From a virus: a DNA stretch of 48,260 nucleotides. The notes beneath the pieces were generated by a model. That model was not told where the DNA came from, did not search any database, and saw only the letters and a program-made list of their open reading frames with translations. Position 1 is the first letter of the stretch. Every line of letters begins with the position of its first letter. Of this stretch, positions 5,969 to 35,041 are shown piece by piece. The stretch is from positions 1 to 48,260 of IMG/VR virus record IMGVR_UViG_3300032282_001387. One strand, written 5' to 3'. The translations under genes and the position numbers were made by a program.

Positions 5969-8900
5969 ATGGCTAAATACCTGAACCTCCCCAACGGCAC
6001 ATCTGTTGAAGTACCTGACGAAATGTCTTACGGGGAGGCGATGGCAAAAGCCCAGCAGCAGTTCCCAGAAGCGTTTGCGCCCAAAGAAAAGCCCCGTACG
6101 GGTATCGGCGCTGCACTGAGCAGAGGTCTTGAAGGTTTAGTTTCTTCCGGCCAAACAAGCTATGAAGCCCTGACAGGTTCCCCCGAAGAAGCGGCTAGGC
6201 GCGGCTTGCAACGCGGCGCAAAGATGGCCGAGAAGTACCCAGAGCAAGTCAGTCTGGAGAAGGTCAAGCAGGCGTATGAGAAGAGCGGTTTGCTGTCCGC
6301 CGCAGGCGAAGCCCTTGGTCAAGTACCCGCTGCATTAGCAGAACAAGCCCCCAACATTGGTGCAACCATTGCAGGTGCACAGGCCGGTCAACGGCTAGGC
6401 GGTATGTTTGGTGCGCCCGGGCGTTTGATTGGTGCCGGTGTTGGTGCAGCAGTCCCCGGTTTGGCGCAGATGTTTGGTAGCAACATTGAACGCCAAGCAG
6501 CCGAACAGCAAAAAGAAGGCAAGCCCATTGAGATTAGCCGTGGTGCTGCCGCAGCCGCTGCTGTCCCCCAAGCCGCGCTCGATGTCGCGGGTACCTTCAT
6601 CCCACTGGGCGGGCGTTTGGTTAGCAAACTAACAGGTGTTCCCGAGAAAGCCTTGGTTGGCCGTACGGCTGAGCAGGCGCAGAAGCTGGCCGATGAGCGT
6701 CTGTATACCACGCTGGCTAAAGGTCTTGGTGTTGGCGTGATGGCCGAAGTGCCAACAGAGGTTGCCCAGCAGATGCTGGAGCGTGCGCAGGCAGGCTTGT
6801 CTCTGACCAGCCCTGACGCTTTGAAAGAGTACGGCGAGACAGCATACCAAGTGTCCTTGTTGGCCCCCTTGGGCGGTGCAGGCCGTGTCGTGGAGCGTGC
6901 CGGTGCTAGAGCGGACATTGTGCAGAAACAACAAGCCGAGATGGCTGACCAGCGTGCGCAAGAAGCCATTGATGCTGAAACTGCTGCCGTTGCTGAGAGA
7001 GAACGCAAAGCTCAGCCAGACTACGCCCTGTCTGTTGAGCAACAGTACAACGACCTGATTGCCAAGCGCGACGAGATTGACGCCCGTATCAAAGCCCCAA
7101 TCACCAAAGGCGACCTAGCCGCAGAGCAGGTGCGCAATGAAGCGAAGCGTGAGAAGAAAGAACTCCTTGGCAGTGATGAAACCAAGTCGCTGATTTCCGA
7201 GTACAACCAACTCAAATCCTCTGGCGCATTTACGCAGATCGAAGCTGACCGCGCAGCCAAGCAAGCCGAAGAGAAAGCCACAGAGCAACAGCGTCTAGCC
7301 GCAGAACTACAACGTCTGGGCACACAGAAACAACAGCAGGCTGATACCGACCGTCGCCAAGCATTGTTGCAAGGCCAGATTGAAGGTGAGCCGGAAGTTG
7401 ACTTGTTGGAAGCAGCCCGCACACGCAAAGCGTTTAAGGCACCCAAGCCCACCGCCGACATTCAAGGTTTGGTGAACTTCCTGCTTGCTGATCCTGTCCG
7501 TGCACAAGAAGCCTTGGCTAAACGTACGGAGTTCCCGGGCTTGACCAAGCAGCAGAACGAAGCTGTGCTGGGCGCAGTTGAGTTGGAGTTGCAACAAGAC
7601 CGTGAAATTGAAGCCAAGAAAGCCGAGCAACGCGCAGGCATGTTGGGCACACAGATGGCTGGCCAAGCCAACACTAATTTGCTAGGTGCTGCACGCGAAC
7701 GTGGCCCCGGCGCAGTGCCCGAGATTGTTGGCCTGCAAAGAATTGGGGAAAAGAATCGCCCTACGGAAACAGAGCAGGGTACCCCTTCAATCCGCAAAGG
7801 AACTGTAACTGGCGAAGGCACACAAGGCAAGCTAATTTCTGAGCGTTTGAAGTCTGCGCAGGACATGTTGGCAGAAGGCGAAGAAGAAACCATGTCGCCC
7901 GAAGACGAGGCGATGGTTGACAACCTCATCAAGACGTTGCCTTTGGGTGATCGCATCATTGCCCCGGGGCAAGTACAGCGCGGTGAAGGCTACAGCAACT
8001 ATGCTGAGCGCAGCAATTTGCTGACGATGCTGAAGTTTGCGCGTGAGACTCGCAACCGTCCCGAAGCTGCCCGCATTATTCAAGAACTGCGTAAGTTGGA
8101 AACGCCATCCGAAGTAGCGGGCACTGGCGAAGCCACCCGTGCCGGTGCTGAGAACTTGAACGAAGTCTTGGGCGCAGCCAACATGACGGAAGCCCGAGCC
8201 GCTGAAGCTGCGGCAGAGCGCCACATCAACGACCAGAACACAGCCATGCTGGGCTATGTGCGCTTCTTGGAGTCTATGCGCCGTGGCAAGCTGGTGCTGC
8301 CGCAGTCTGCACAAAACCGTCTGGATGCGCTGCGTAACGAATATCTGGAAAGCCACTTGGCTGAACTGGACGAGCGTCGTGCTGCGTTTGGTATGCCGCC
8401 TATGGCCGACTGGGAGCGCGGCGAAGCCCGTGCCCGGGTCATGGAGGGCTTCAACAAGATTGAGGCTGACTGGGGCAAAAAGGAAACCACGTTCGACAAC
8501 GTGCTGGCGGTTCAAAAAGAAATCCGCAAGAACATCTATGACAACCTGACCAATGCCGCCAAGCGTTTCCAGACCGAGCAACAGAATCAGATTGCTGAAA
8601 AAACTACGACTGGCACAGGTCGTCGCATCGCTACACCAGACAACCTCAAACTGACCGAGCGCAAGCAAGCTGAAAGCACCGAAGACATCATCACGCGTCT
8701 GCTGGACACTATGGGTCAGCGTCAACGCGCTGTGCCCACCGCAGCAATCAAGCCTGCACAGAAAGTTGGGAGCCTTGCTGATATTGGCAAGCTCATGGAG
8801 CCTGAGAAAGCTGCGGGTGCGTTGCAGCCGTTCAGTGCCAAGATGGTGGACACACTGGAGCGTATTCAGAACTGGCTCCCACAAACCACTGACGCTGAGT

Positions 8901-11900
8901 TCAAAGCGATGGCGCGTGACCTTGTGCAGCAGATTGAAGCTGGCAATGAACCCAACCAGTTTGACCTGCGTGATCTGAATGAAAAGATTCGCGGCTTTGA
9001 GGAAGCTGGGCAAAGCGTAACCCGTCCCGGTGCTACCCCGGAAGAACTGCAACGCACCAGTGCGCAGCAGCAAGGCACGTTGTTCCCAGAAGCCGAAGTG
9101 GCTGTTGGTCGTGCTACGCCTGCCAACTTCCAGCGCATGCTGGACTCCAAGAACATTCAAGGTCTGCGTCAGGCTATTGCTGACCAGAAGCAAGCCAACA
9201 TTGATGTGTTGCAGGACTTGCAAAAGACCATCCCCAGCGCCCAGAACTTGCTGGCCAAGGCTGAGATCAAGACCATCAAAGCACGAGCCAAAGTCAAGAC
9301 GTTGGACGAGCGGGCTAAGGAAGACCAGACCGACGAGGAAATCAAAAAGGCTTGGGCCGATGCAGCGCGTGAAGTAATTGCTGCCGAAACTGCGATGCAG
9401 TCTATTCCACGACGCATGGCGTACCTGATTGAAATTCGTGACAGTCTGGCTAAGCTGAACAAGACCGACAAGCAGACGCTGATTGCGTTGATTGACGAAG
9501 CGTTGAACTTTGCTTCTAACCCTGACACGCCTGCGGCTTTGCGCGACAGCTTGGAAGTTAAAGAGTTCAAGGAACTTAAACAGTGGCTTGATGCCGACAA
9601 AGTGAACGCTGAGATTAAGCGTCTGGACAATCTGTATAAAGCGGCCAAGAAAGCCGTTGAGCCTGCCCGTGCCAAGCTGCAAGCTGCGCTGGACAAGTAT
9701 GACCAAGAAGGTCTGATCCGCGAGTCGTTGGAGCGCGAGCACCAGAAAGCACTGGATGCTTTGAAGAAGGCCGAAGCTGCTGAGCGCGAAGCTAAGAACG
9801 CTGTGCGTGAGCAGGAGCAGGAAAACAAAACGGTTGAAGAAGACGCCAAGGAAACCGATCGCAAATACAAAGAGGCTTTGCTGCGTGCCCAGTCGGGTAT
9901 GGGCTTGCCCGGTATTCGTGTTGAAGAAGACATGGCAGCTATGCGCAAAAAAGTGCAAGGACTGCGCGGTGCTATGGGTTCCTTGGAAGATCAGGTCAAC
10001 GCAGAAAAAGACCCGGTGCGCAAGCAGGAACTCCAAGAGAAGTACCTTGCCAAGCAGCAAGAGTTGGAGCAGCTTACCCCGCCCAAGCAAGTCACCGAGC
10101 TTCGCACCCCAGAGGCAGAGCAAACAGCCAAGGAAGCCGAAGACCGTGCTGCTGCACAGCAAGCAGGCATTGATGCACGCCGTCGTGCCCGTACTGGTGA
10201 AGCCGCACCGAAGTTACCCACACGTCTGCAAGGCCCGGTGGCCCGTCTTGGCACAACCCAGCGCATTACACAGACTGGCACCAAGCGCGATAAAGATAAC
10301 GTCCGTCGTGCCGAACAGATTCTGAATGTGGTGACCAAGAGCCGCGCTGACCTTAAAGAGTTGCAAGACCGGATGAAGTTCTTGCGTGACACTGGCAAAG
10401 CCAAGGTGTCCAACCGCTACACGCCGCTGTTCAAGAAACTGGAAACCCGCGAGGATCAGCTTAAGAACCGTTTGGCTCGTGCAGAAAAAGCGCAGGCCAA
10501 AGTGCAGACAGAGCAGAAACAAACGTCTGAAGCCCTTGCATCCAGCCAGCGTCAAGCGAAGCCCTACAAGAAAGACGTGGTGTACCGCCCAGTTTCTGCG
10601 GAAGGGCCGGGCATGCAGACCGCTGCGGTTAAACGCCTGTTGGCGCGTCTTACTGAGGGTTGGGAGAATGTACCGCCAATTGAGGTGGTGGACAGCTTCG
10701 ATGGCCTGCCTGAAGCCATCAAGGAACAAGCCCGTGCAGATGGCGTAGCTGGGCAAATCCCCGGCTTGTACGACCCAGAAACCAACAAAGTGTATCTGGT
10801 GGCTGACCGTCTGCATACCGGCGAGGATGTGGTGGCGACTGTTGCCCACGAGGTGACAGGTCACTTTGGCCTGCGCAGCATGCTGGGCCGTGACTACACC
10901 GCCAAGATGGATGACATTTACAACGGCAACGCTGCGGTACGTGCGCGTGCTGACGCCAAGCTGGCTGAGATGCCGTCCCTTACACAGCAGACTGCCACTG
11001 AGGAAGTGTTGGCTGAGATGGCTGAACAGCCGCCCACAGAGGACACACGCTCGGCTCTGCGCAAGATATTCGATGCCATCAAGGACTGGTTCAAGCGGTT
11101 CACTGGCGAAACCGTGTCGGACGCTGCCGTGCAGCAGATCGTTGCCAATGCCCGCAGCCATGTGATTGAGGGTGGTGAATCTAGGATCGGCGAGGTGAGC
11201 GGCAAAGCCTTGTATCGCAGTCCTGCGCCTACGTACGCCAACCCAACTCTGGCCCGTGCTGGAGCCGTTGCCAACAAGACGATTGCCAAGCAGCGTGGGG
11301 TAATGGATGCCATTAAAGAAGAAGGCGCTGGCCTCAAGCTGATGACTCAGTTTGTTGACCGCTTTGCCCCGCTGGAGAAGTTGTCCAAGTACATGGAAGG
11401 CCACAAGGGTCTTCAGATGATGTACTACGCCCGCATGTACGACCAGCGCATGAACTTCGTGTCGCAGTCTGTGGGCAACGGTGCCCTGCGCCGTGTGGAG
11501 AAGACGCGTCCTGATGGCAAGAAAGAGTTCATCATTGAGAGTACGCCCGGTGCCAGCCTGAAAGGTGTGGTGAACATTCTCAAGCGCGGTAATGATCTGG
11601 TCGGCAGCGCCGAGGGCAACAGCCAGTTGTTCTCCATGTACCTGATTGCCAAGCGTGCTGAGCGTGTGGGTCTGGCTAAACTGAACTATGGCGGTCAAGT
11701 TACCGAAGCTGACCTCGATGACGTGCGCCGTGCCGTTGCTGGCACGCCCGGACTCAAAGCCATCTACGATGCAGCGCAGAGCGAATACAACTCTTACAAC
11801 CGTGACATGCTTCAGTTTGCTGTGGACTCCGGTGCACTGTCCGCCAAGACCCGCGAAGAACTGATTAAGGCGGGTGACTATGTGCCGTACTACCGTGAGC

Positions 11901-13804
11901 GTAACGGTGCGGTTGAGATGATGCTGGGTAACAGCACGATTGCCCGAATTGGCAATACCAAAGAGCAGCCGTACCTGAAAGAGTTGACCGGTGGCGAGAC
12001 ACCTATTCTGGACTTCATGACCAGCGCGGTGCAGAACACCAACATGTTGACCGACATGTCCCTGCGCAATTTGTCCACTAAGAACGCGGTGTATGAACTG
12101 CAAGCACTGGGCATGGCCAAGGTCGGCAAGGGCAACGCAGCGTCTGGCCCCAACGTGGTCAAGTACAAGGAAGACGGCGAAGACAAGTTCGCTTTGCTCG
12201 ATACCGAAGACGTGGTTATTAACGGCAAGCGTTATCCCACTGGCATCCCGGCTGATCTGGTGGTCAAGGGCATGGAGGGCATCCCTGTTCAGAACACCAT
12301 CATTACCAAGCTGATGGGCGGCCCTGCCCGAGCATTGCGCAAGTTCGTGGTGCTCAACCCTCTGTACGCTGCGCGTCAGTTGTTCCGTGACTCGTTGGCT
12401 GCACCCATGCTGTCCGGTGCTGACTTTGCTCCGATCTTTGGAGCGTTGAATGAGGTTGGTTCTGCCACAGGCAAGACACTGACACAGCGCGGTGTTACTG
12501 GCGGTCAAGTGTTTACCGGTACGCAGGAAGACTTGACCATGATTCTGCGGAACATGGCGGCTAACAAGTCCGGTTGGGCCGAAGGTCTGGCTAAGCTGGA
12601 AGCCATGTCGATGGAAGCCGATGCGCTGACTCGTCGTGCCCAGTACAACAGCTACATCAAGCAGGGTCTGTCTGAGATGGAAGCCACGTACATGGCGCTG
12701 GAGTCTATGAACTTTGGTAAGCGCGGCATGAACCCGGCTATGCACACGCTGTCTACAGTCATCCCCTTCTTCAACGCGCAGTTGCAGTCGCTTAACGTGC
12801 TGTTCAAAGCCTTCAGTGGCAACATGCCGTTCAATGAAAAGTTGAAGATTCGTGAGAAGCTGTACGAGCGCGGGCTGATGCTGGCTAGTATGACGATGGC
12901 TTACGCTGCGTTGATGCAAGACGACGAGACGTACAAGAACGCCACGCCTGAACAGAAGTACGGCAACTGGTTTATCCACGTACCCGGCGTCGAGGAAGCT
13001 GTGCGTGTGCCGATCCCATTTGAGATTGGCTACATCTTTAAGGCCATCCCTGAAGCTATCGTCAACAGCATGATGAACGAGCGCGGTGGCGAGGAAGCGG
13101 CCAAAGCCTTCAAACAGATTGCCTTGCAGATTGTCCCCGGCGGTACGTCTTACGGTATGCCGCAGGCTATGAAGCCGCTGCTTGAGGTTGGCTTGGGCAA
13201 GTCGTTCTACACAGGGCGTGACTTGGAGTCTGCGCATGAGCAGTCGTTGGAGCCGGGCTTCCGTTCTCGTGACAACACCACGGCACTGGCCCGCATGATT
13301 GGTGAGCAATTCAATATCTCCCCGATTAAGTTGGATGCGCTGATCTCTGGCTACTTCAGCACGACTGGTTTGGCCTTGGCTGATGCGTTGAGCTTTGCAT
13401 TGCCCGGCCCCGATGTGGAAGCGCCTACGAAGCGTACGTCTGAGATGCGTTTGGTTGGTGGTTTGTTCCAGCCGAAGGATGCTGGCGGCATCATCAATGC
13501 CACGTACGACCGCCTGAAAGAAGCCAAGCAAGTCACGGATACGTACAAGGACTTGGTTGCCAAGGGTCGCACAGCCGATGCCCAGCGGTACCTGCAAGAA
13601 AACTTGCAACAGTACGCTGAGTCTGGCTTAGAGTCGAAGTTCTCGTCCTACATGCAGAAGATTGCCAAGGCAGAGCAGGCAGTGCGCGGGTCTAAAGACC
13701 TGAGCGCCGATGAGAAGCGTGAGCGTCTCGACCGGCTGCGTGAGTTCAAGATCAACTTCGCTAACGACGTGAGGGCGGCGGCAGATAGAACAGCACCCCA
13801 ATAG
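5969..13804 (+). CDS. Giant internal-virion / polyvalent-type protein with gluzincin-like metallopeptidase motif
   Basis: 2611 residues, the largest gene here. Residues about 90-300 are Gly/Ala-rich and hydrophobic (APNIGATIAGAQAGQRLGG), like membrane-active ejection proteins. About 310-1560 is mostly charged coiled coil. Residues 1627-1632 read HEVTGH, a zinc-binding HExxH motif, followed about 46 residues later by EEVLAEMAE, which could supply the third Glu ligand of a gluzincin. Residues about 1800-2520 resemble the large polyvalent protein domain LPD38: LNPLYAARQLFRDSLAAP near 2127, then PFFNAQLQSLNVL, then hydrophobic helices. Such giant proteins are packaged in podovirus heads and injected with DNA; the peptidase could remodel host wall or host proteins. 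Zinc binding and virion location are inferred. No clear Shine-Dalgarno site precedes the ATG. Confidence 0.8.
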   Translation: MAKYLNLPNGTSVEVPDEMSYGEAMAKAQQQFPEAFAPKEKPRTGIGAALSRGLEGLVSSGQTSYEALTGSPEEAARRGLQRGAKMAEKYPEQVSLEKVKQAYEKSGLLSAAGEALGQVPAALAEQAPNIGATIAGAQAGQRLGGMFGAPGRLIGAGVGAAVPGLAQMFGSNIERQAAEQQKEGKPIEISRGAAAAAAVPQAALDVAGTFIPLGGRLVSKLTGVPEKALVGRTAEQAQKLADERLYTTLAKGLGVGVMAEVPTEVAQQMLERAQAGLSLTSPDALKEYGETAYQVSLLAPLGGAGRVVERAGARADIVQKQQAEMADQRAQEAIDAETAAVAERERKAQPDYALSVEQQYNDLIAKRDEIDARIKAPITKGDLAAEQVRNEAKREKKELLGSDETKSLISEYNQLKSSGAFTQIEADRAAKQAEEKATEQQRLAAELQRLGTQKQQQADTDRRQALLQGQIEGEPEVDLLEAARTRKAFKAPKPTADIQGLVNFLLADPVRAQEALAKRTEFPGLTKQQNEAVLGAVELELQQDREIEAKKAEQRAGMLGTQMAGQANTNLLGAARERGPGAVPEIVGLQRIGEKNRPTETEQGTPSIRKGTVTGEGTQGKLISERLKSAQDMLAEGEEETMSPEDEAMVDNLIKTLPLGDRIIAPGQVQRGEGYSNYAERSNLLTMLKFARETRNRPEAARIIQELRKLETPSEVAGTGEATRAGAENLNEVLGAANMTEARAAEAAAERHINDQNTAMLGYVRFLESMRRGKLVLPQSAQNRLDALRNEYLESHLAELDERRAAFGMPPMADWERGEARARVMEGFNKIEADWGKKETTFDNVLAVQKEIRKNIYDNLTNAAKRFQTEQQNQIAEKTTTGTGRRIATPDNLKLTERKQAESTEDIITRLLDTMGQRQRAVPTAAIKPAQKVGSLADIGKLMEPEKAAGALQPFSAKMVDTLERIQNWLPQTTDAEFKAMARDLVQQIEAGNEPNQFDLRDLNEKIRGFEEAGQSVTRPGATPEELQRTSAQQQGTLFPEAEVAVGRATPANFQRMLDSKNIQGLRQAIADQKQANIDVLQDLQKTIPSAQNLLAKAEIKTIKARAKVKTLDERAKEDQTDEEIKKAWADAAREVIAAETAMQSIPRRMAYLIEIRDSLAKLNKTDKQTLIALIDEALNFASNPDTPAALRDSLEVKEFKELKQWLDADKVNAEIKRLDNLYKAAKKAVEPARAKLQAALDKYDQEGLIRESLEREHQKALDALKKAEAAEREAKNAVREQEQENKTVEEDAKETDRKYKEALLRAQSGMGLPGIRVEEDMAAMRKKVQGLRGAMGSLEDQVNAEKDPVRKQELQEKYLAKQQELEQLTPPKQVTELRTPEAEQTAKEAEDRAAAQQAGIDARRRARTGEAAPKLPTRLQGPVARLGTTQRITQTGTKRDKDNVRRAEQILNVVTKSRADLKELQDRMKFLRDTGKAKVSNRYTPLFKKLETREDQLKNRLARAEKAQAKVQTEQKQTSEALASSQRQAKPYKKDVVYRPVSAEGPGMQTAAVKRLLARLTEGWENVPPIEVVDSFDGLPEAIKEQARADGVAGQIPGLYDPETNKVYLVADRLHTGEDVVATVAHEVTGHFGLRSMLGRDYTAKMDDIYNGNAAVRARADAKLAEMPSLTQQTATEEVLAEMAEQPPTEDTRSALRKIFDAIKDWFKRFTGETVSDAAVQQIVANARSHVIEGGESRIGEVSGKALYRSPAPTYANPTLARAGAVANKTIAKQRGVMDAIKEEGAGLKLMTQFVDRFAPLEKLSKYMEGHKGLQMMYYARMYDQRMNFVSQSVGNGALRRVEKTRPDGKKEFIIESTPGASLKGVVNILKRGNDLVGSAEGNSQLFSMYLIAKRAERVGLAKLNYGGQVTEADLDDVRRAVAGTPGLKAIYDAAQSEYNSYNRDMLQFAVDSGALSAKTREELIKAGDYVPYYRERNGAVEMMLGNSTIARIGNTKEQPYLKELTGGETPILDFMTSAVQNTNMLTDMSLRNLSTKNAVYELQALGMAKVGKGNAASGPNVVKYKEDGEDKFALLDTEDVVINGKRYPTGIPADLVVKGMEGIPVQNTIITKLMGGPARALRKFVVLNPLYAARQLFRDSLAAPMLSGADFAPIFGALNEVGSATGKTLTQRGVTGGQVFTGTQEDLTMILRNMAANKSGWAEGLAKLEAMSMEADALTRRAQYNSYIKQGLSEMEATYMALESMNFGKRGMNPAMHTLSTVIPFFNAQLQSLNVLFKAFSGNMPFNEKLKIREKLYERGLMLASMTMAYAALMQDDETYKNATPEQKYGNWFIHVPGVEEAVRVPIPFEIGYIFKAIPEAIVNSMMNERGGEEAAKAFKQIALQIVPGGTSYGMPQAMKPLLEVGLGKSFYTGRDLESAHEQSLEPGFRSRDNTTALARMIGEQFNISPIKLDALISGYFSTTGLALADALSFALPGPDVEAPTKRTSEMRLVGGLFQPKDAGGIINATYDRLKEAKQVTDTYKDLVAKGRTADAQRYLQENLQQYAESGLESKFSSYMQKIAKAEQAVRGSKDLSADEKRERLDRLREFKINFANDVRAAADRTAPQ

Positions 13805-13964
13805 CCCCACCAAGAATGCCCGGGGCAGCCCGGGCATTCAGCACCCTGTGAGTGACGGCCTGCTTTAGGCCGTACTCAACTAACGGTGCAGGGTCGAGGC
13901 AGGGTATGAAGAACGCCTGCCCCTTCTTAAGCTGCGGCCAAGGGAAGTGGTATCGAGTCAGCAT
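13761..13964 (-). CDS. Small phage protein (67 aa) overlapping the 3' end of the giant gene on the other strand
   Basis: Starts at an ATG inside the end of the primase gene with GGGGA upstream; a GTG at 13979 is a weaker alternative. The N-terminal sequence YHFPWPQLKKGQAFFIP matches a pattern I know from small phage proteins (Y-[PH]-F-x-x-[LM]-x-x-G-[QD]-[SA]-FF-[VI]-P), followed by a helix and a basic segment. The C-terminal 14 codons run antisense over the last 44 nt of the giant gene. Its place as last gene of the leftward operon fits a real gene. Function unknown. Confidence 0.6.
   Translation of the reverse strand: MLTRYHFPWPQLKKGQAFFIPCLDPAPLVEYGLKQAVTHRVLNARAAPGILGGAIGVLFYLPPPSRR
13814..13839. 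other. Strong 11-bp hairpin between the converging operons
   Basis: GAATGCCCGGG and CCCGGGCATTC form a perfect 11-bp stem with a GCAG loop, starting 9 nt after the stop of the giant gene. There is no U-tract on either strand. It may act as a bidirectional transcript-end or stability element. It also lies within the small minus-strand gene at 13761-13964, where it encodes an ARAAPGIL stretch. Confidence 0.65.
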
Positions 13965-16827
13965 CTGATTCCCCAACACGGCGACGAATCTTTATCGCAT
14001 TGACGCGCATCTGCGGGCCTTTGGTTTTCGACGTCATGTCCTTCTTCATACGCTCCACAAAGATGCCTTCGATCTCGCCAAGCTGATTGCAGAACGCCGC
14101 GTAACCAAAGCTCATGGTGGCACAGTATGCCTTGAGCAAAGACTCTTCGATGTAGTAGTCAATGAACCCGGGCGTTAGCTCGTGCTCAATACGACCTGCA
14201 ATGCTTGTGCGTGTGATGGTTTGGTCGATCTCCTGACCCCCGCCAAGCTGCGCCAGCAAGCCGCCATCGCTGCGCTTGACCACCACGAAGCGACCAAAGT
14301 GTTCCCCAGTGTAGGAATTGAGCACGTCCTCGGCAGATCTGCTGCTGGCCTTCATGGCCTTGCGCATGTACTTGACCGCATCCTTGTAGGCTTGAATGAT
14401 CTCGCGCATGGGCAGGTCGATGATGCCAGCGTACTTCTTGCTCCATAGGATGCCAGCCGCTACGCCAGACCCGATGCCAGCCATCCAGAACCGCTCGTCG
14501 TTGGTGGCGTTGAACTCTTGGTACATACGCGCCACGGTGTCGTTGGTCAGGGGGCCAAGCACTTCTTCGTTGTTGACCATGTAGTCGATCATCATGAACC
14601 CAGCGGTGCCGTAGTTCTCCTGCAATGACTTGATGATCTCGACCTCGTGTGGTTCCCACGACAAGGTGTCCTCCATCAGAATCTCCAGCAAGCGGCGCAG
14701 TTCACCCTCGGCAGCGTGCTTGCGCCCGCCAGTCAAAATGTCAACCATGTGGGTATTGGATGACAGTAAGGCATTGGTCTGCCATGTGGATAAGTTCAAG
14801 CGCTCTTTGTTGGAGCCAGCCTCCATACGCTCCTTGCCTTTGCCCTGCGTCATGTCCAGCAGGAACTCGGGCAACCACTCAAAGCTATCGCGGTTCTTAG
14901 ACGTGATTTCATCGGTGATAAGGGGGTGGCATTGGAGCAAGCCCAAACGCTGCTGCATGGCCACAGGAGACGTGCTCTTGCCGGTACGGTAGTGACCGGG
15001 GTGACCCCACACAGACGCCGCTGCTTCCAAGGCTAGGGATTTACCCGTACCCGACTCGGTTGAGGCGCAGTGGAAGGTCATGCCGAACAGCTTGGTGTAG
15101 CGCATCAGGGGTGAGCCAGCACCGGCAAGCATCACGGCTAAGTGCTTGTACATCTTCTTGGCGATCAGCAGGTTGACAAACTTGCGCCAGTTCTCGATGG
15201 TGCCCGATGGTTCTGTGAACGATGCCAAGTTCTCCAGCCCCGGCATGGGGAGCGTTACGGGTGTGCGGCCTTTGGTGAAGATGCGCCCCGCAAATACGTA
15301 CGAGCCATCGGGTTGCCAGCCGTAACTGCTTGGAACCTTCACGGCCACCTTGCTGGTACTGGCTTCCTCGACGCAGGCGCGTACATAGTCAAACAGGTTC
15401 TTGTCGTTGCCCTGCCCAAAGCTGGCAATCACGTTCTGCTGAGCCAGCGCCTTGACTGTCTCGTCCTTGGATACCACAGCCTTCTGCGCCATGATGAGGT
15501 CTGCTGGCCCCTCTGGGCGCATGGCTACCAAGTGGACTGAGTGTTCACCGTGGGTGTTGAGAATGTCCACCACGAACAAGTCATAAGGCAACACCGCCAC
15601 CAGTTTCTTCGCCTTGCTGCCATCGTCTTGCTCGACCATGCGCTCCACGTAGATGCCGCCCTTGTCGCCATAGGCGTAGCCTTTTGGCGCAGGCGGTCTG
15701 CGGATGGTTCGCGTCTCGTCGGCCACAACGTCGCTGGCAGAAGAAATGTTGATAGGGATCTCCTTCTCCTCGGTCGATACCTTGACCTCACGCCCCAGTG
15801 CCAGCGGGTTGGTGATGCTGCCCCAGTGTTTGCACAGGTGGCAGATGCCCGGGTTCTCCGAATCAAATTTGATACAGGGGTATGGCCCCTTGATGTCGCG
15901 CAACTTCTGGTGCATGCGGTCTGGTGGGTAGGGGTGCATCTGGCTGAGCCATCCCGCCGCTTTGTTACCGTCCTCACACTTCTGTGTGATCGAGAGCAGA
16001 CCACGCCACAGCGGCTCCATGCCGTCATCACTGGCGTTCTCGATGTAGTAAGCCAACTGACCGCAGCCATCACCACGCTGAGTAGCCAGCCAGATCGTCT
16101 TGAACTTGGTGGTGTTGTTCTCGAACAGCTTGACGCTGGTAGCCGAGGGTGCCTTGGATGGGCGTACACCGGGCAACTCAATGACGTTCTTTGGCGCTTC
16201 GTATGCGGGCGATGTCAGCTTGTCGTTGATGACTCGGGCAAGGTCAGCGAACTCAAACGTGTCACCTTCGGCTAGTAGGCGCACGGGGCGCGGCGTGGGG
16301 TACTTCTCTTTGAAGTTGGTTGTCCCCGGCACTCGCAGCACACGGGCGGCATCCGCCGTCACGGTCATGTCGATCGCCATCTTCTCCTGTTTGCACAGGC
16401 GCTTGAAGTTCTCGGCTACCGGCTTCCATGTGGTGATGTCGATGGTTTCGGTGAAAGGCCAATACACATGCAAGCCCCCGCCTGACCCAACGATGTAAGG
16501 GCTACCGAGTTCCGATAAGCCCACCGATTCCATAAAGTTAGTAAGTGCTAACGCCGCTTCTTTCTTACTGGCGTAGCCATCCATGTCAATGAACAGGGAC
16601 TTGATGAACTGTGCGTTCTCAGCCAGCCGGTTGTCGGGCGTCTTGTAAGTTGCCAGTGCAAAGTAAACATTCTTCTTTTGCGCATGCCATGCCTCGACTG
16701 GGGGCATTACGTCTGCAAGTGTCTCCTCATGTTGGTGCTCCTTGTATGGAGATGAAAGCTCCGCCACGCAATACGTGCCGTGTCCGGCAGATGGCAGAAC
16801 CGCCGCTAAAAACTCCAGCGGTGTCAT
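13927..16827 (-). CDS. Primase-polymerase / helicase fusion protein
   Basis: 966 residues. The N-terminal domain looks like an archaeo-eukaryotic primase (AEP, 'bifunctional primase/polymerase'): the catalytic acid pair is in FIDMDGY (D81, D83), followed by SGGGLHVYW (115-123, H120) and the ARVLRVPGTTNFK segment (161-173). Around 330-345 a CHLCKHWG motif may bind zinc. The C-terminal part has a Walker A, STESGTGKS (K596), then LITDEI as a likely Walker B and a sensor-like segment with LLSSNTH, as in D5/DUF927-type superfamily 3 or related AAA+ helicases. The likely role is origin melting, primer synthesis and fork unwinding for the phage. The start follows AAGGATCGCT. It is downstream of the HTH and small genes in the leftward operon. 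Confidence 0.88.
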   Translation of the reverse strand: MTPLEFLAAVLPSAGHGTYCVAELSSPYKEHQHEETLADVMPPVEAWHAQKKNVYFALATYKTPDNRLAENAQFIKSLFIDMDGYASKKEAALALTNFMESVGLSELGSPYIVGSGGGLHVYWPFTETIDITTWKPVAENFKRLCKQEKMAIDMTVTADAARVLRVPGTTNFKEKYPTPRPVRLLAEGDTFEFADLARVINDKLTSPAYEAPKNVIELPGVRPSKAPSATSVKLFENNTTKFKTIWLATQRGDGCGQLAYYIENASDDGMEPLWRGLLSITQKCEDGNKAAGWLSQMHPYPPDRMHQKLRDIKGPYPCIKFDSENPGICHLCKHWGSITNPLALGREVKVSTEEKEIPINISSASDVVADETRTIRRPPAPKGYAYGDKGGIYVERMVEQDDGSKAKKLVAVLPYDLFVVDILNTHGEHSVHLVAMRPEGPADLIMAQKAVVSKDETVKALAQQNVIASFGQGNDKNLFDYVRACVEEASTSKVAVKVPSSYGWQPDGSYVFAGRIFTKGRTPVTLPMPGLENLASFTEPSGTIENWRKFVNLLIAKKMYKHLAVMLAGAGSPLMRYTKLFGMTFHCASTESGTGKSLALEAAASVWGHPGHYRTGKSTSPVAMQQRLGLLQCHPLITDEITSKNRDSFEWLPEFLLDMTQGKGKERMEAGSNKERLNLSTWQTNALLSSNTHMVDILTGGRKHAAEGELRRLLEILMEDTLSWEPHEVEIIKSLQENYGTAGFMMIDYMVNNEEVLGPLTNDTVARMYQEFNATNDERFWMAGIGSGVAAGILWSKKYAGIIDLPMREIIQAYKDAVKYMRKAMKASSRSAEDVLNSYTGEHFGRFVVVKRSDGGLLAQLGGGQEIDQTITRTSIAGRIEHELTPGFIDYYIEESLLKAYCATMSFGYAAFCNQLGEIEGIFVERMKKDMTSKTKGPQMRVNAIKIRRRVGESDADSIPLPLAAA

Positions 16828-22160: not shown

Positions 22161-24146
22161 CTAGTTTTTAGCTAACCCATATCGACGGTGAGCGCCACCG
22201 TCAGCGGCCAAGGGTATACCCGGCATGTAGCTCGGCTCCATAGTCATCTGCGCCAAGACCCATGTCTTAGCTTCATCGACTTCTGCCTGCGGCACCACAA
22301 CGATTTGTTCGTCATGCACAGTACCCGCTACGAAGTACCGCTTTGACGTTCTCAACATCCCATCAGTCATCACGCATCTTGCTACGCCCTGCGTGACGTT
22401 GTTGGTTACTTTTCCTCCGTACAGTTTAGTCCTGTTTTCACCGTACGTCCACTCTTTTTGTGTCTTGCCTGTTTTTTCATCAACCCGGCGGGTCACGTTG
22501 AGTTTGTCGTACACGATGGGCATGCCGCTTGGCAGGATGATCTCCCCCTTGCGGAAGGTCAGACACTTGTGTCGGTACTCTTTGCCGTTGTACAGCGACT
22601 CCTCAATCAGCGTGGTCATCAAGTCCCAGAACTCCGTCACAGGCGTGGCAGTTTCCCGATACTTCTCGATGATGGCCTTGGCTGCAAGGCAGTGGATGAC
22701 TAGCTCCTTGGTGGTGCAAGTGTGCGGGATGGCTTCGAGCTTTTCGACGTTGACATCCCAGTCAAGGAACTTCTGCGCGGCTTCTTGGGTAACGCCGAGC
22801 GTCTTCGCAAAGGCCAAGTCATAGCGTACGGGTGGAGCGCCAAGGAATCCAACGAGAAGCTGGGCAGCGAAAGACGCCCAGCCAAGCCCGTACCCGCAGC
22901 CGAGCAACGCTGACTTCGCAGACTGTCGCAGGTCTGGATGGCTGTCTTTTGAAAGGCCGGGTATGTTGAACATCTGAGCACCGAAAGCCGCGTAAGGGTC
23001 ACCGCCAGCCCTGAAGATGTCGAGCATATCTTCGTAATCCGCCAGCCATGCGAGTACTCGCGGTTCAATCTGCGATAAGTCCCCGACAACAAGCTCGTGC
23101 CCCATCGGAGCCATGATTGCTTTACGAAGGAAGCTGCCTCGCTTGAGGTTTTGCATGTTGATGGCGCTGCCTTTCGCTGCCGTCCACCTTCCAGTAGCTG
23201 CGCCGTAGTACGAGAGCGGTACGGGGAGCGCCCCACGTTGGCTGATGTCGAGGAATCGCTGAGCACGGGTTCGCTCCGTTGTGGATTTAACCCGAAGACG
23301 CGCTTCACAAAGTAAGGCAACGTCCTCACGTTCACCGTTTTTGAGTAGCTGAAACATCGCATCATTCTTAGCCAGCGCGAAAGTCTCTTTGCCTGTGGTC
23401 TTGCTAACCTTGGTTGGAGGTGCGACCCCCAGCGTCCGTAGTATTTCCGCAAACTGCTGATTCGACGCCAGCGAAGCCTCCTCCACGCCGAGCTTTTGTA
23501 ATAACGACTCACGTTTTTCTCCTTCTTCTTTCAGCGCGTCAATCAGCATGCTGCGGTCAAGCTCAAGGCAAGCCCGCGTGTACATCTTGAGCGTCATGTC
23601 GATGAGCCGTAGCTCCTTGGCAGGGTAGCCCTTGACCAGCCGCTTGAAAATCTCAATGCACAGGAAGACGTCGTGCATGCAGTAGTCAGCTAACTCCCGC
23701 TCGATCTCAGGCGTGATCTCGGTCAACCCATCTGTGCTGTGCACAGCCTTGCCCTTGGGCGGCAGACCGAAGTCCTCCGCCAGCTTCATCAGCGAGTTGC
23801 CGACTTCGACTCCACGCAAGGCCCGAGCCATAGAGAGCGTGTCAAAGATAAAACACGGATGTATGCCGTATTGCCACTCCAAGATGGACACGTCGAACTG
23901 TGCGTTGTGGGCAAGGATTGCCGTGGTGCTCCAGTCGTATGTGGCAAGGATGCGTGGTAGCTCGTCCCCGTTGTACCACTGGGTGATGGGTGTGTCGTCT
24001 CCAACCTCTTTGATGCAAGCGCCAAAAGCCTTGAATCGTTTGTCACGTATGTACTCCTCTGTTGTCATTTTGGATAGCGTGTAGTCTGATCTGTCCCACC
24101 GAGTTTCAAAGTCGATGCACAGCAGCTTCTTGTAGGGCGCACTCAT
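22161..24146 (-). CDS. Family A DNA polymerase with 3'-5' exonuclease
   Basis: 661 residues. The start at ATG 24146 (MSAPYKK) overlaps the upstream stop as ATGA; the longer frame back to 24209 is less likely. Exonuclease motifs: DFET (D12, E14), HNAQFDVSILEW, and YCMHDVFL. Polymerase motif A GDLSQIEPRVLAWL (D356), motif B RQSAKSALLGCGYGLG, and motif C VHDE (H611, D612, E613). No 5' nuclease domain. This is a replicative phage polymerase resembling those of T7-like and HMO-2011-like phages. Position 4 after the catalytic Asp in motif A lacks a Phe/Tyr/Leu switch I can interpret safely. Confidence 0.95.
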   Translation of the reverse strand: MSAPYKKLLCIDFETRWDRSDYTLSKMTTEEYIRDKRFKAFGACIKEVGDDTPITQWYNGDELPRILATYDWSTTAILAHNAQFDVSILEWQYGIHPCFIFDTLSMARALRGVEVGNSLMKLAEDFGLPPKGKAVHSTDGLTEITPEIERELADYCMHDVFLCIEIFKRLVKGYPAKELRLIDMTLKMYTRACLELDRSMLIDALKEEGEKRESLLQKLGVEEASLASNQQFAEILRTLGVAPPTKVSKTTGKETFALAKNDAMFQLLKNGEREDVALLCEARLRVKSTTERTRAQRFLDISQRGALPVPLSYYGAATGRWTAAKGSAINMQNLKRGSFLRKAIMAPMGHELVVGDLSQIEPRVLAWLADYEDMLDIFRAGGDPYAAFGAQMFNIPGLSKDSHPDLRQSAKSALLGCGYGLGWASFAAQLLVGFLGAPPVRYDLAFAKTLGVTQEAAQKFLDWDVNVEKLEAIPHTCTTKELVIHCLAAKAIIEKYRETATPVTEFWDLMTTLIEESLYNGKEYRHKCLTFRKGEIILPSGMPIVYDKLNVTRRVDEKTGKTQKEWTYGENRTKLYGGKVTNNVTQGVARCVMTDGMLRTSKRYFVAGTVHDEQIVVVPQAEVDEAKTWVLAQMTMEPSYMPGIPLAADGGAHRRYGLAKN

Positions 24147-24427
24147 TGCAGCGTCCCCAGTGGCGGGAAGACCGTGGCAGCATCGCCACACAGCGCGTGA
24201 TAACCACACGCGATGATCTCTTTGGCTTCGGTTTCATCCGCCCCCGCGCTGTATGTGAACATGTTGTCGCCATCACTGATGAGGATGATGGCGCGTGCGT
24301 CTGAGTCCAAGTCGTAGCAACTGACAAGTTGTATCAGCAGGTTTGCGAAGTGGTTGCGTTGCTCTGACGGGCATTTGCCCAGCATATCAAGCGCCTTGCT
24401 CCACCGTGCTCTGGTGTGTTCATCCAT
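24143..24427 (-). CDS. Hypothetical protein (94 aa)
   Basis: GGAGAAACTAC lies before the ATG. Helical N-terminus (ARWSKALDMLGKCPSEQ), then a beta-like segment AIILISDGDNMF and a Cys-bearing C-terminus. Ends in an ATGA overlap with the polymerase start and overlaps the VRR-NUC gene by 8 nt, so it is made together with the polymerase. No family recognised. Confidence 0.7.
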   Translation of the reverse strand: MDEHTRARWSKALDMLGKCPSEQRNHFANLLIQLVSCYDLDSDARAIILISDGDNMFTYSAGADETEAKEIIACGYHALCGDAATVFPPLGTLQ

Positions 24428-28373: not shown

Positions 28374-29336
28374 TTACGCTGTGACTAAGTTCAGCGCCTT
28401 GTTCTTGAGTGCATCGCCCGGCCCCCACAATGCAGAGGCTTGGCGGTTCTCGTCGCTACGTGCACGCACATGGTGGTCAGCATACTCTGTGACAGCGTTG
28501 AGCCAGCCCCATGCGGTGTCGTGTGCCGTCTCGAAGTTGCTACCCTTACCTGCCCCATCGAACAGCGACATGATGCGCGTGAACCCAGCCGAGGCACGGG
28601 CCACCTCTTCGTTGGATTTCATGAGCAGCTTGACCGTCAACTCCTCTGCTGCCTCGTGGTCAACCTTGATTTGCGCCAAGTTACGAGCCATCAGCATGAA
28701 CGCACCGAACTCTGCATTGGCCGCCTCAACAGCAGCCTTGGCATCATCAGGCTTGAACTCTGTGCGATGCGTTGCCTTGTAGGTGGCCTCGCCTTTACGT
28801 GCCAGCGTTAGCGTGTTGTTGCACACCGTGCGCACTGTTGTCCATCGGCACTCAGTCGAGAGCGAACCGTCAGCAGACGTAGAGAGCAGCGCATAGGGCA
28901 CCACCTTGTCACGCCCACCGTCAAGGGACACAGCATCAGCCAGCTTAGCCGTAGCGAAGTAACGCTTGCCCCCGAACAGGACACCTGCGCTCTCGATGGT
29001 CAGCCCGCCTTGCTCTGCCCACTCACGGAAGAACTCCAACACATCCGATGGCTGCACCACCTTGTAGCCATCCGACACCACACCCAACGCAGCGCCTGTA
29101 TCTGAGCGAAACAGTACGTGCTTGTCGTCGATGGTTTTGAATTGGCTAGGGTGCGTGAGGTCACGCTCAGTTGCGTAGCGGATGACGCTGCGCTGGATAC
29201 GGTAGTCCATACCCGCTTGCTTCTGCCAGTCCTCGATGGTTGCGCCAGCTACCATCAGTTGGCCGAGGCCGTGCCACTCACGCTGAGTAGATGCGTATTG
29301 AGCGATGCCATTGTTAAAGCTAATTTCATGTGACAT
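28374..29336 (-). CDS. DUF932 / TIGR03299-type phage protein
   Basis: 320 residues; AAGGAGAAATCAA before the ATG. Begins MSHEISFNNGIAQYASTQRE with EWHGLGQ, contains YKVVQPSDVLEFFREW, a CRWTTVRTVCNNTLTLA segment and WGPGDALKNKALNL at the end, all hallmark segments of the DUF932 (phage/plasmid-like, TIGR03299) family. Often plasmid or phage borne; function unproven. Separated from the peptidase gene by a hairpin. Confidence 0.9.
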   Translation of the reverse strand: MSHEISFNNGIAQYASTQREWHGLGQLMVAGATIEDWQKQAGMDYRIQRSVIRYATERDLTHPSQFKTIDDKHVLFRSDTGAALGVVSDGYKVVQPSDVLEFFREWAEQGGLTIESAGVLFGGKRYFATAKLADAVSLDGGRDKVVPYALLSTSADGSLSTECRWTTVRTVCNNTLTLARKGEATYKATHRTEFKPDDAKAAVEAANAEFGAFMLMARNLAQIKVDHEAAEELTVKLLMKSNEEVARASAGFTRIMSLFDGAGKGSNFETAHDTAWGWLNAVTEYADHHVRARSDENRQASALWGPGDALKNKALNLVTA

Positions 29337-29399: not shown

Positions 29400-30542
29400 T
29401 TAGACCTCGCAGTGCGTTGCGTCAAACAACGATGCGAGGATGGTGTCTACCCCATAGGTATCTGACCAGAGCATAGCGTCTGCTAGTAGCTGCGGCGTGA
29501 GGTCTTTCTTGCTGATGAACCTGCGCGCAAGGTCTGGGTCTTCAGGATACACAGACTCACACATGAGGTCAATCAGGAAGTCTTTGTAGCCACCCTGCGC
29601 ATCATAGATAGCCTCGCGTAGCGTGATGCGGTCGTACTCATCGTCGGATGGGTCAAACGCATAGTTAACATTGCTTGTCCATGACTTGTCTTGCCAGCCC
29701 ATATCCCATGTCTTGTCGTCGTGAGACGCGGTGTCCCACGAACCCCATGACTTGTGCCACTTGCTCTCGTGCACCGTTGGGTCACGGTCGGTAGGCAGGT
29801 TGTCCCAGTCAATGAGCAGGCAGCGGTTGGCTAGTTGCTGCAAGTGGATGATGTCGAGCTTCTCGTTGACCGTGTGCTCTGAGTAGTAACCCACGCTGAT
29901 GTTGGTGCACTCGGGGATGTGGTCAGTGAACTCTGCGGTATCCGTGTACACACCTGTGTCGTCGGGCATATACATGAGCGTCATGTCCTCGTTAAGCTGG
30001 TCGGCCAGCGCCTGCGCAAACTTGTCGGAGCAGCAGCGGCCATACCCTTGGTGAGTAATCACACTGTCGATACCACGACGGTCGAACGCAATGGCACGGT
30101 CGAACTCTTTGAGTAGCTTCTTCTTGTGCTCGGCAACGTGCGTAGCACCGATGCCACCACACTCCTCGCCCTGCGTGAAGATGTAATAGGCGGGCACACC
30201 GTAGTGCAGCAAGTGCATGAGCATGGCAACACCGGCACCGTCATCGGCACCGAGAGGCGCGTCAGCATGGGCATACCATATGCTGTTGGTCTTGCGTATC
30301 TTGTTGGGGCCAGTGACACGGTGCACTGTGTCTACGTGCGCAACGAACAGCGTTCGATTGTGCTTGCCTTGTCGTGCATCGATATGTACGTTACCCGCAG
30401 CGTCGATGTGTGGCTTGCCGAGATGCTTGGGCGTGTTGTTGGTAAGCCAAGCGGTTAGCTCTTGCGTACCGGTGGAGTTATGCGGGCGCTTGATGGACAA
30501 GGCACGCGCAAGGGTTTTGTAAAGCATTGAATGTTTGTTCAT
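29400..30542 (-). CDS. M20/M28-like zinc peptidase with Trp/Asp-rich C-terminal insertion
   Basis: 380 residues, TAGGAGAAATCAA before the ATG; an in-frame ATG at 30530 is an alternative. Metal-site residues are all present: FVAHVDTV (H69, D71), PLGADDGAG (D100 bridging, D101), TQGEECGG (E126 catalytic, E127), AFDRRG (D154) and YYSEHTVNEK (H223). This matches di-zinc aminopeptidases of the M20/M28/M42 clan (PepT-like). Residues about 252-300 form a Trp-rich acidic stretch (KWHKSWGSWDTASHDD) not expected in the family. No signal peptide, so cytoplasmic. Likely substrates are small peptides or an N-acyl metabolite; in a phage this could feed amino acids to replication or remove a signal. It is unusual for an early phage operon. 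Confidence 0.82.
   Translation of the reverse strand: MNKHSMLYKTLARALSIKRPHNSTGTQELTAWLTNNTPKHLGKPHIDAAGNVHIDARQGKHNRTLFVAHVDTVHRVTGPNKIRKTNSIWYAHADAPLGADDGAGVAMLMHLLHYGVPAYYIFTQGEECGGIGATHVAEHKKKLLKEFDRAIAFDRRGIDSVITHQGYGRCCSDKFAQALADQLNEDMTLMYMPDDTGVYTDTAEFTDHIPECTNISVGYYSEHTVNEKLDIIHLQQLANRCLLIDWDNLPTDRDPTVHESKWHKSWGSWDTASHDDKTWDMGWQDKSWTSNVNYAFDPSDDEYDRITLREAIYDAQGGYKDFLIDLMCESVYPEDPDLARRFISKKDLTPQLLADAMLWSDTYGVDTILASLFDATHCEV
29721..29739. repeat. Palindrome-family copy inside the peptidase gene
   Basis: GTGAGACGCGGTGTCCCAC matches the intergenic 19-bp palindromes at 32.0-35.1 kb, but lies in codons of the Trp/Asp-rich insertion. It could be chance or part of how the insertion arose. 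Confidence 0.5.
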
Positions 30543-33041: not shown

Positions 33042-33863
33042 TTACTCCCCCTCTTGTTTCAATAGCCCGTGCCATGTTTGGGGTAAGGCTGCGTTGTCAC
33101 GTTTGCGGTGTAGGATGGTCTGCGCTTGCTTGATGCGTTGCATCTTGGCTTCGAATGAGCGTTGTGCCCCCTCCACGTCTTCCTGTGTGGTTGGCGATAG
33201 CTCTCTGTCGGTCTGCAACATATCGTAGGCAACTTGCAGGGTTGCGTACTCGTTAGCCATTGCGTCTTCTAATAGGCGGCGTCGTGACCTTGCGCTTGCC
33301 TTGGGCACGATGCGCTGGAAGGGGGCTTTGACCTTGGATTGCTTGCGGTATGGCACAGCCTCGAACAGGGCGGTTACTCGGTCTTTGACCTTCTCAGGTA
33401 CCCAGTCAGTCCAATGCTCAACCCTCGTCACGTAGCGGCACTTGCCTTCTTCCTGTTCCTTGCGCAGTACCTGCAAGGGCGTGTCGTTGGGGTTGCACTC
33501 AACCAGCGTGTCGAACTGCTCGATTAGCTTGCGCATGACTACCATGTACGCTTCATATGCGTCGCGCCTTGTGGTGTCCGTCTCGTCCAGCGTGTCGCCC
33601 CTGATTTCCTTGCGCTTGATGTACTCCAAGGATGAGCGGGTTGTTTCCATCTCCTGCTTGAGTGGGGTGCGCAGGTATCGCCAGTAAGCGACAGCACGGA
33701 AGTGTTTGATGCGCTGGCCTTTGAGCATTGCTCGTTCTCTGCGTACTTCTTCAATGACTTCCTCAATGCGACCCGCGCTGTATTGCAGGGCTTGAAGGGT
33801 CTTGCGTATCTCGTCGAGCGTGTAATGCTTGAACCCCGAAGGGGGTATGCGTGGTCTTACCAT
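33042..33863 (-). CDS. Hypothetical coiled-coil protein (273 aa)
   Basis: ATG 33863 behind CAGGAGAAACCA. N-terminus MVRPRIPPSGFKHYTLDEIR, then mostly basic helix (RRERAMLKGQRIKHF), with a charged loop at 145-180 and a second long helix at the C-terminus (AQRSFEAKMQRIKQAQTI). No membrane segment or enzyme motif. It has its own probable promoter with a palindrome over the start site. Unknown family. Confidence 0.75.
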   Translation of the reverse strand: MVRPRIPPSGFKHYTLDEIRKTLQALQYSAGRIEEVIEEVRRERAMLKGQRIKHFRAVAYWRYLRTPLKQEMETTRSSLEYIKRKEIRGDTLDETDTTRRDAYEAYMVVMRKLIEQFDTLVECNPNDTPLQVLRKEQEEGKCRYVTRVEHWTDWVPEKVKDRVTALFEAVPYRKQSKVKAPFQRIVPKASARSRRRLLEDAMANEYATLQVAYDMLQTDRELSPTTQEDVEGAQRSFEAKMQRIKQAQTILHRKRDNAALPQTWHGLLKQEGE

Positions 33864-33884: not shown

Positions 33885-33903
33885 GTGGGACACGGTGTCC
33901 CGT
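33885..33903. repeat. 19-bp palindrome copy 3
   Basis: GTGGGACACGGTGTCCCGT, located 21 nt before the start codon of the gene at 33042-33863. Confidence 0.8.
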
Positions 33904-33912
33904 TAAAGTATA
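33885..33912 (-). promoter_or_regulatory. Promoter -10 box overlapping a palindromic operator-like site
   Basis: TATACT on the minus strand (33912-33907) would start RNA near 33900, inside the palindrome at 33885-33903. No good -35 hexamer; AAAAAAAGATTC repeats lie there instead. The layout suggests repression by a palindrome-binding protein (inference). Confidence 0.5.
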
Positions 33913-34318
33913 CAAGGTTCACGGAATCTTTTTTTGTCCTCGATAATCTTTTTGTGTCCACACAATATCGAAGGTGCCCTGTTTGCGAGGACATGGCGAA
34001 GCCGCATGAATACTGGGTTTGCGCACTTTGTGTACTGCTATATGCTGTTTGTGGAATGTGCAAAGGGGAAAACACCATAAGCTCATTGTGCTTCGCCGGA
34101 AACACAGACACATAGAGAGAGATATATATTATATTATTTAATAAATATAAATATATTATAGAGAGGGCCAAAAGCGGCATCGCTAGCATCCATGCGGGGT
34201 TGCGCGGGGTTGGGGTGCGCACGACCTTCGATAATGTGTGGACAGTAAAAACACGTGTCACAGAATCTTATTTTTTGCTTCAGAATCTTATGAGTGGGAC
34301 ATCGCGTCCCACTTTTCC
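33904..34318. other. Gene-free AT-rich control region; replication origin candidate
   Basis: 415 nt without a convincing gene. The centre (34111-34166) is nearly pure A/T with GA runs on both sides (ATAGAGAGAGATAT). A 20-nt inverted repeat with one mismatch flanks it: TGTCCACACAATATCGAAGG at 33955-33974 and CCTTCGATAATGTGTGGACA at 34225-34244. Outside this are short direct repeats around GAATCTT: 33924, 33945 (variant AATCTT), 34263 and 34283, spaced about 20 nt within each pair (CAGAATCTTA exact at 34261 and 34281). An AT-rich unwinding stretch with repeats is typical of an origin; a regulatory region is the alternative. Confidence 0.55.
34294..34312. repeat. 19-bp palindrome copy 4
   Basis: GTGGGACATCGCGTCCCAC, 7-bp perfect arms, 6 nt after the stop of the gene at 34319-34519. 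Confidence 0.8.
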
Positions 34319-34651: not shown

Positions 34652-35041
34652 TCAGGCGGCGAAAGCCAGAGCCAAGGCAGTCGAAGCCAACGACTTAGCC
34701 TTCTTGTACTCGTTGCACAAGGCAGCCAGCTTCTCGGCAGCCTTCAGAATCTCAGCGGGCACTGCGACTTCCTCTTTGCGTGCTGATGACTTGCCCATGA
34801 TGTCGTTAATGAGGCGGTTGGTGTATCGCTTCGCAGCGCAGTCGCTGTCTGTCCACTTGCCGTCGACGTATTCCGCACCGTAACGCTTGGCAGCACGAGG
34901 CGCAACGTAGTCTTTCACCGTGTCACGGTCAGCGCCCTTGAGTAGGCGTTGCAACTCTGCGACCTTCTCGCCGTATGTGTCACCGGCTTTGAAAGCACCG
35001 TCGATAGCGTTGTTGATGAGAGTGGTATTGAATGTAGCCAT
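34652..35041 (-). CDS. Hypothetical protein, first leftward gene (129 aa)
   Basis: ATG 35041 with TAGGAGTTCATC. MATFNTTLINNAIDGAFKAG, a central YGAEYVDGKWTDSD segment, and an Ala/Lys-rich helical C-terminus (KAAEKLAALCNEYKK). As the gene nearest the divergent region it is probably among the first expressed. Unknown family. Confidence 0.7.
   Translation of the reverse strand: MATFNTTLINNAIDGAFKAGDTYGEKVAELQRLLKGADRDTVKDYVAPRAAKRYGAEYVDGKWTDSDCAAKRYTNRLINDIMGKSSARKEEVAVPAEILKAAEKLAALCNEYKKAKSLASTALALAFAA

Follow-up and report, generated by a model that had tools for sequence, protein, structure and literature searches.

A very likely iteron-type replication origin with paired divergent boxes in a phage encoding a DUF927 primase-helicase

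Iteron-type origins of replication are known as such; what appears new in the phage locus described here, judging from its letters, is the box that accompanies one. The element-encoded initiator helicases SaPIbov1 Rep/SCC Cch (DUF927) and SaPI5 Rep/Cch2 are of the same DUF927 class as the phage protein, and their origins are likewise made up of short repeats located in noncoding DNA (PMC7581432). Cch, a DUF927 helicase, has a relative in SaPIbov1 Rep, and helicases of this kind recognize the iterons of the origin through their C-terminal domain (PMC7581432). Phage P4 resembles the locus by the primase-helicase fusion of its alpha protein and by the short iterons that flank AT-rich DNA at ori/crr (annotated record). 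RSF1010 oriV offers a further likeness, with one priming site per strand (ssiA and ssiB) in an iteron origin and an AEP primase (PMC4434180, PMC6925257). The iteron oriV of Rep_3 plasmids combines iterons, AT-rich DNA, and the same box beside the rep gene.

The window, i.e., the whole stretch of DNA analyzed, is a viral record of 48,260 bases. Its early genes point leftward and occupy 35041 to 13927; from ~35.4 kb onward, genes for terminase, portal, and head proteins point rightward. Inside the leftward block, between the gene starting at 33863 and the small genes from 34319 on, lies a 415-nt stretch (33904–34318) that an earlier note had described as gene-free and as an "origin or master control" candidate. 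This stretch is very likely the replication origin of the phage, namely a bidirectional iteron origin served by the DUF927 primase-helicase of the phage and functioning in the manner of SaPI/SCC Rep origins. The origin half of the earlier label is supported by the conserved position and layout in relatives and by a box in common with the origin regions of two Rep_3 iteron plasmids. The stretch is indeed gene-free: both flanking genes (33042–33863 and 34652–35041, each on the minus strand) have homologues in relatives, whereas the inner ORFs have no convincing one. Two weak matches of inner ORFs to the relative L003 (E ~1e-4) fall on noncoding L003 DNA or opposite the neighboring gene. The region taken as a whole gave no DNA match to named phages, and the Rfam search of the region gave nothing at the gathering threshold, with permissive matches lying elsewhere than at the box.

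Table 1 Features of the candidate origin and proposed replication proteins in the window
Feature	Position	Strand	Remarks
966-aa primase-helicase, proposed initiator	13927..16827	-	DUF927 helicase; AEP-like N-terminal motifs by eye
PolA-family DNA polymerase, proposed primer extender	22161..24209	-	PolA-type
Palindrome GGGACACGGTGTCCC, operator-like, left border	33887..33901	.	directly upstream of the leftward gene that begins at 33863; L003 has GGGCGGAACCGTTCCGCCC there
Three tandem 20-bp iteron-like units, left	33920-33939, 33940-33959, 33960-33979	+	three similar units in L003
Inverted repeat, left arm	33949..33975	+	beyond all 200 shuffles
Left box AACCCAGTATTCATGCGGCTT	33999..34019	-	points away from AT core; PWM 24.7 bits
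AT core, candidate unwinding element	34099..34169	.	purine-rich GAGAGA at both edges
Right box	34180..34206	+	CTAGCATCCATGCGGGGT core at 34183-34200; points away from AT core; PWM 30.9 bits
Inverted repeat, right arm	34224..34250	-	contains TGGACAGT element
Two tandem 20-bp iteron-like units, right	34259-34278, 34279-34298	+	AATCTT at 34264 and 34284
Palindrome GGGACATCGCGTCCC, operator-like, right border	34296..34310	.	sequence

The center of the stretch is formed by an AT core, whose 56 bp, placed at 34111–34166 in the earlier note as well, are the lowest in GC of the window (0.143 versus 0.286 for the next lowest elsewhere). The core is environed by an inverted repeat that had been reported as 20 nt long with one mismatch (at 33955 and 34225). 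It is present and longer than claimed, with 27-nt arms paired at 24 of 27 positions; the best inverted repeat in 200 composition-matched shuffles reaches 19 of 27. Direct repeats occupy both outer sides, again in agreement with the earlier description: AATCTT is found at 33925 and 33945 and again at 34264 and 34284, with a distance of exactly 20 bp within either pair, and three of the four copies read GAATCTT. The AT core, the inverted repeat, and the iterons all exceed chance. As in iteron origins, direct repeats are found near an AT-rich candidate unwinding region, and the stretch is noncoding with a place conserved across relatives.

The strongest feature, absent from the earlier note, is a pair of divergent boxes CYAGYATYCATGCGGGTT(T) that lie within the inverted repeat and around the AT core at a spacing of 187 bp. 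The box profile matches the 48-kb window at these two places only and gives no match in shuffles. The box is nearly invariant over 18 to 22 letters and has apparently not been described before: no description was found in the open literature searched, where its letters occur, among the matches listed, in primers only.

Close relatives were retrieved via the terminase and a further one via the primase-helicase. Repeat conservation, which had been suggested as a check on the origin reading, is observed in that relatives retain the position and layout of the stretch. In L003, L008, and L010 (TerL identity of 83–86%), the AT core is kept between the same genes. L003 has counterparts of nearly all elements of the plan—three 20-bp units, AT core, CTAGTATCCATGCGGG, CCTTCGATAAT arm, and TGGACAGT, the last of which is also retained in L008 and L010. 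These two relatives keep the AT core and the boxes with differing iteron letters; in L007, the AT core is retained together with a single box. L351 has 81% identity in the primase-helicase, and its origin stretch was read as L353, where the AT core is 85% identical over 59 nt at the syntenic place and is accompanied by one diverged box only. Some relatives thus lack one or both good boxes, and since L353 has one diverged box and L007 one, two good boxes are not essential. In place of the right box, L353 (11100–11320) and L007 (700–950) carry CGCTAATRAAATCAAC...TTASGC, possibly an alternative element. A second box type, GCTAATRAAATCAAC (L007 and L353), was rejected as a general element (5/81).

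The window encodes its own primase-helicase and polymerase, as had been stated before, in the form of a DUF927 protein and a PolA-type enzyme (Table 1). The primase-helicase matches PF06048 with E 3e-19. The AEP primase motifs at its N terminus were read by eye; in Pfam, a PrimPol domain scores no better than E 0.19. A further match (E 1.7e-5) is to 8tch, a Pathogenicity island protein of solved structure and presumably a SaPI Rep-type helicase; the predicted structure has a pLDDT of 31.

Compared with the known systems, the locus shows several differences. In SaPI/SCC replicons, the helicase gene is immediately followed by the origin, whereas the phage stretch is ~17 kb away (33904–34318 versus a helicase gene at 13927–16827). 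Helicase and primase are separate proteins in those replicons but appear to be held in one protein in the phage, and no description of the box for them was found in the open literature searched. Phage P4 has iterons of the sequence TGTTCACC and no copy of the box; the box motif is absent from G4, P4, and the half of R100 searched. In RSF1010, whose type of ssi site is a hairpin flanked by single-stranded tails, ssiA is defined by the hairpin structure, whereas a hairpin for the phage box is unsupported by flank-swap folding. Rep_3 plasmids use a Rep_3 initiator in place of the DUF927 primase-helicase of the phage.

In the mechanism proposed for the origin, the DUF927 primase-helicase of the phage would bind the 20-bp iteron-like units and the inverted arms on both sides, upon which the AT core would melt. 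Two helicase rings would then load onto the opened strands and depart in opposite directions. The two divergent boxes, one per strand, would act in initiation, most likely as first-primer sites or as the docking place of a helper protein, and the PolA polymerase of the phage would extend. What is observed is the anatomy of the stretch, its conservation, the gene content, and the presence of the box in iteron-rich regions; the binding, melting, loading, and priming steps and the choice of the box-reading protein are inferred. The leading ideas on the box are a priming or helicase-entry site or a site read by a host factor. A RepB'-type primase as the common box reader was rejected because no primase domain is seen in the MOBQ relaxase and the L302 protein looks TOPRIM-like by eye.

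The distribution of the box was determined by scanning the pattern CYAGYATYCATGCGGGKT in 2.9 million viral contigs, which gave at least 120 matches in other contigs. Among the matches listed, an AT core adjoins the box in 45 of 92 contexts. Boxes around 60 distinct AT cores point outward in 53 cases versus inward in 22, and in all 15 two-box cases the pair straddles the AT core at 171–220 bp, 11 of them being divergent. Iteron-rich flanks (p<=0.05) occur at 82 of 136 boxes versus 15 of 131 control windows, an enrichment seen in viral and genomic loci. The consensus from 153 unrelated contexts is AAAnCYAGYATYCATGCGGGTTTSMGG, the 17-letter core of which was fixed by the search, so that unbiased preferences are seen in the flanks only. 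The box is a near-palindrome, and the AAA favored upstream reads as TTT on the other strand; both would suit an ordinary hairpin (terminator or insulator), with the paired boxes just shielding the AT core from read-through, a reading that could hold inside an origin. Controls of similar degeneracy in the same collection yielded merely 3 matches for a bulge-less palindrome and 2 for a loop variant versus the at least 120 for the box; therefore, its letters matter and not the hairpin alone. Swaps of the 3' flank between loci do not worsen folding (p=0.61), which together with these counts makes the hairpin reading unlikely. An extended hairpin with covarying flanks is unsupported as well, no covariation being found by flank-swap folding.

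Besides viruses, the box is found on plasmids. In complete Escherichia coli genomes, the 22-letter box occurs at 504 places, 497 of them on plasmids, a count that is inflated by many near-identical 4-kb plasmids. The left box of the window matches an E. coli plasmid box at 22 of 23 letters. On the 4-kb E. coli MOBQ plasmid, the box lies near iterons and ~390 bp from the Rep_3 initiator gene, and on a Klebsiella IncFIB plasmid it adjoins iterons and the Rep_3 gene. In both of these Rep_3 iteron plasmids, the origin region contains or adjoins the box. Plasmid matches below 95% identity were not counted as boxes because they are mostly not near rep genes. These plasmids also bear on the idea that the stretch is a packaging start (pac or cos), which would agree with the terminase genes at a distance of 1.2–1.6 kb. 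Such a role is highly improbable in view of a box that is shared with plasmids not packaged as phages, e.g., the 4-kb MOBQ plasmid, and that occurs in iteron-rich places generally.

In sampled bacterial genomes, each sample including its seed genome, the exact 18-mer occurs in 25 of 399 from the Comamonas order, 8 of 399 from its phylum, and 3 of 300 from the Clostridia-side phylum, versus zero matches for a reversed-pattern control. At 17 loci, a primase-helicase cluster lies ~230 bp from the box; two of its members were read by eye. Box neighbors include integrases, tRNA ends, glmS, and IS66. In Burkholderiales genomes (L262, L268, L233, and L272), the box is located ~60–80 bp downstream of glmS between AAAGTCGTAAACA repeats, possibly as the end of a transposon or island. 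Elsewhere it follows a few bases beyond the 3' end of a tRNA, as in integrated elements (L263, L269, L271, L297, and L167). A repeated Clostridial element carries it between ParA-like and serine recombinase-like ORFs (L206, L218, L277, and L282), and an IS66 element has an exact 24-letter box that separates its tnpB from its transposase gene (L329, 8001–8024). The boxes by tRNA ends, by glmS, and in IS66 count against the origin reading, as no origin is known there; such boxes could belong to the origins of integrated elements or point to a different function of the box.

Boxes a few bases past tRNA 3' ends in some bacterial genomes, and inverted and direct repeats that resemble attP arms, would also fit a reading of the stretch as an attP, i.e., a core with arm-type repeats. 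This is exceedingly improbable: the window record, which is perhaps incomplete, holds neither a tyrosine integrase (PF00589) nor a resolvase-type recombinase (PF00239), and the window has no tRNA gene. Since the window is perhaps incomplete, another origin may lie outside it.

Operator-like palindromes and small early genes adjoin the stretch, as had been noted, the palindromes being located at 33887 and 34296. Palindromes of the type GGGACAnnnTGTCCC are found at early leftward gene boundaries at 29723, 32053, 33000, 33887, 34296, 34632, and 35060. The corresponding sites read GGGCGGAACnGTTCCGCCC in L003, L008, and L010 and GGGGACA..TGTCCC in L007—a layout that is retained while the letters change, as in a switch of operator specificity. 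As regards the control half of the earlier label, the bracketing palindromes look like operators, but such palindromes occur at most early gene boundaries and not at the stretch alone. In a rival reading, the stretch serves mainly to control transcription, supplying the leftward genes with early promoters and operators, and the AT core is an upstream promoter element. This is in keeping with the palindromes, found at either border and at several further early gene boundaries, and with four weak promoter-like matches that the wider region contains, all inside the stretch; however, shuffles give 1.8 such matches (sd 1.4), so that four are barely above. Transcription control as the main role is quite unlikely, leaving unexplained both the fixed-spacing divergent box pairs around the AT core in 15 phages and the box beside plasmid Rep genes, but it may coexist with an origin.

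GC skew over the window is flat with no turning point at 34 kb. The inflection suggested earlier as a check is hence not seen at the stretch, and AT skew merely tracks the switch of coding strand; the skew is uninformative.

If the origin reading is right, a phage group whose origin is not named in the open literature searched gains one, and the box offers a simple tag by which origins could be located in uncultured phages and integrated elements. A near-invariant box in replicons with different initiators suggests a common step at the start of mobile-element replication. Tentatively, and with somewhat more doubt than confidence, CYAGYATYCATGCGGGTT could be a portable initiation element of many unrelated mobile replicons (phages, plasmids, and integrated elements) in at least Pseudomonadota and Bacillota. 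It would then be read by a factor independent of the initiator of each element: either a protein of the host or, as a step common to these replicons, single-strand priming or helicase entry.

Further genes of the window include those for an M28-family peptidase (29400–30542) and a DUF932 protein (28374–29336) among the early genes, as well as that for a 2611-aa protein with an LPD38 domain on the plus strand (5969–13804).
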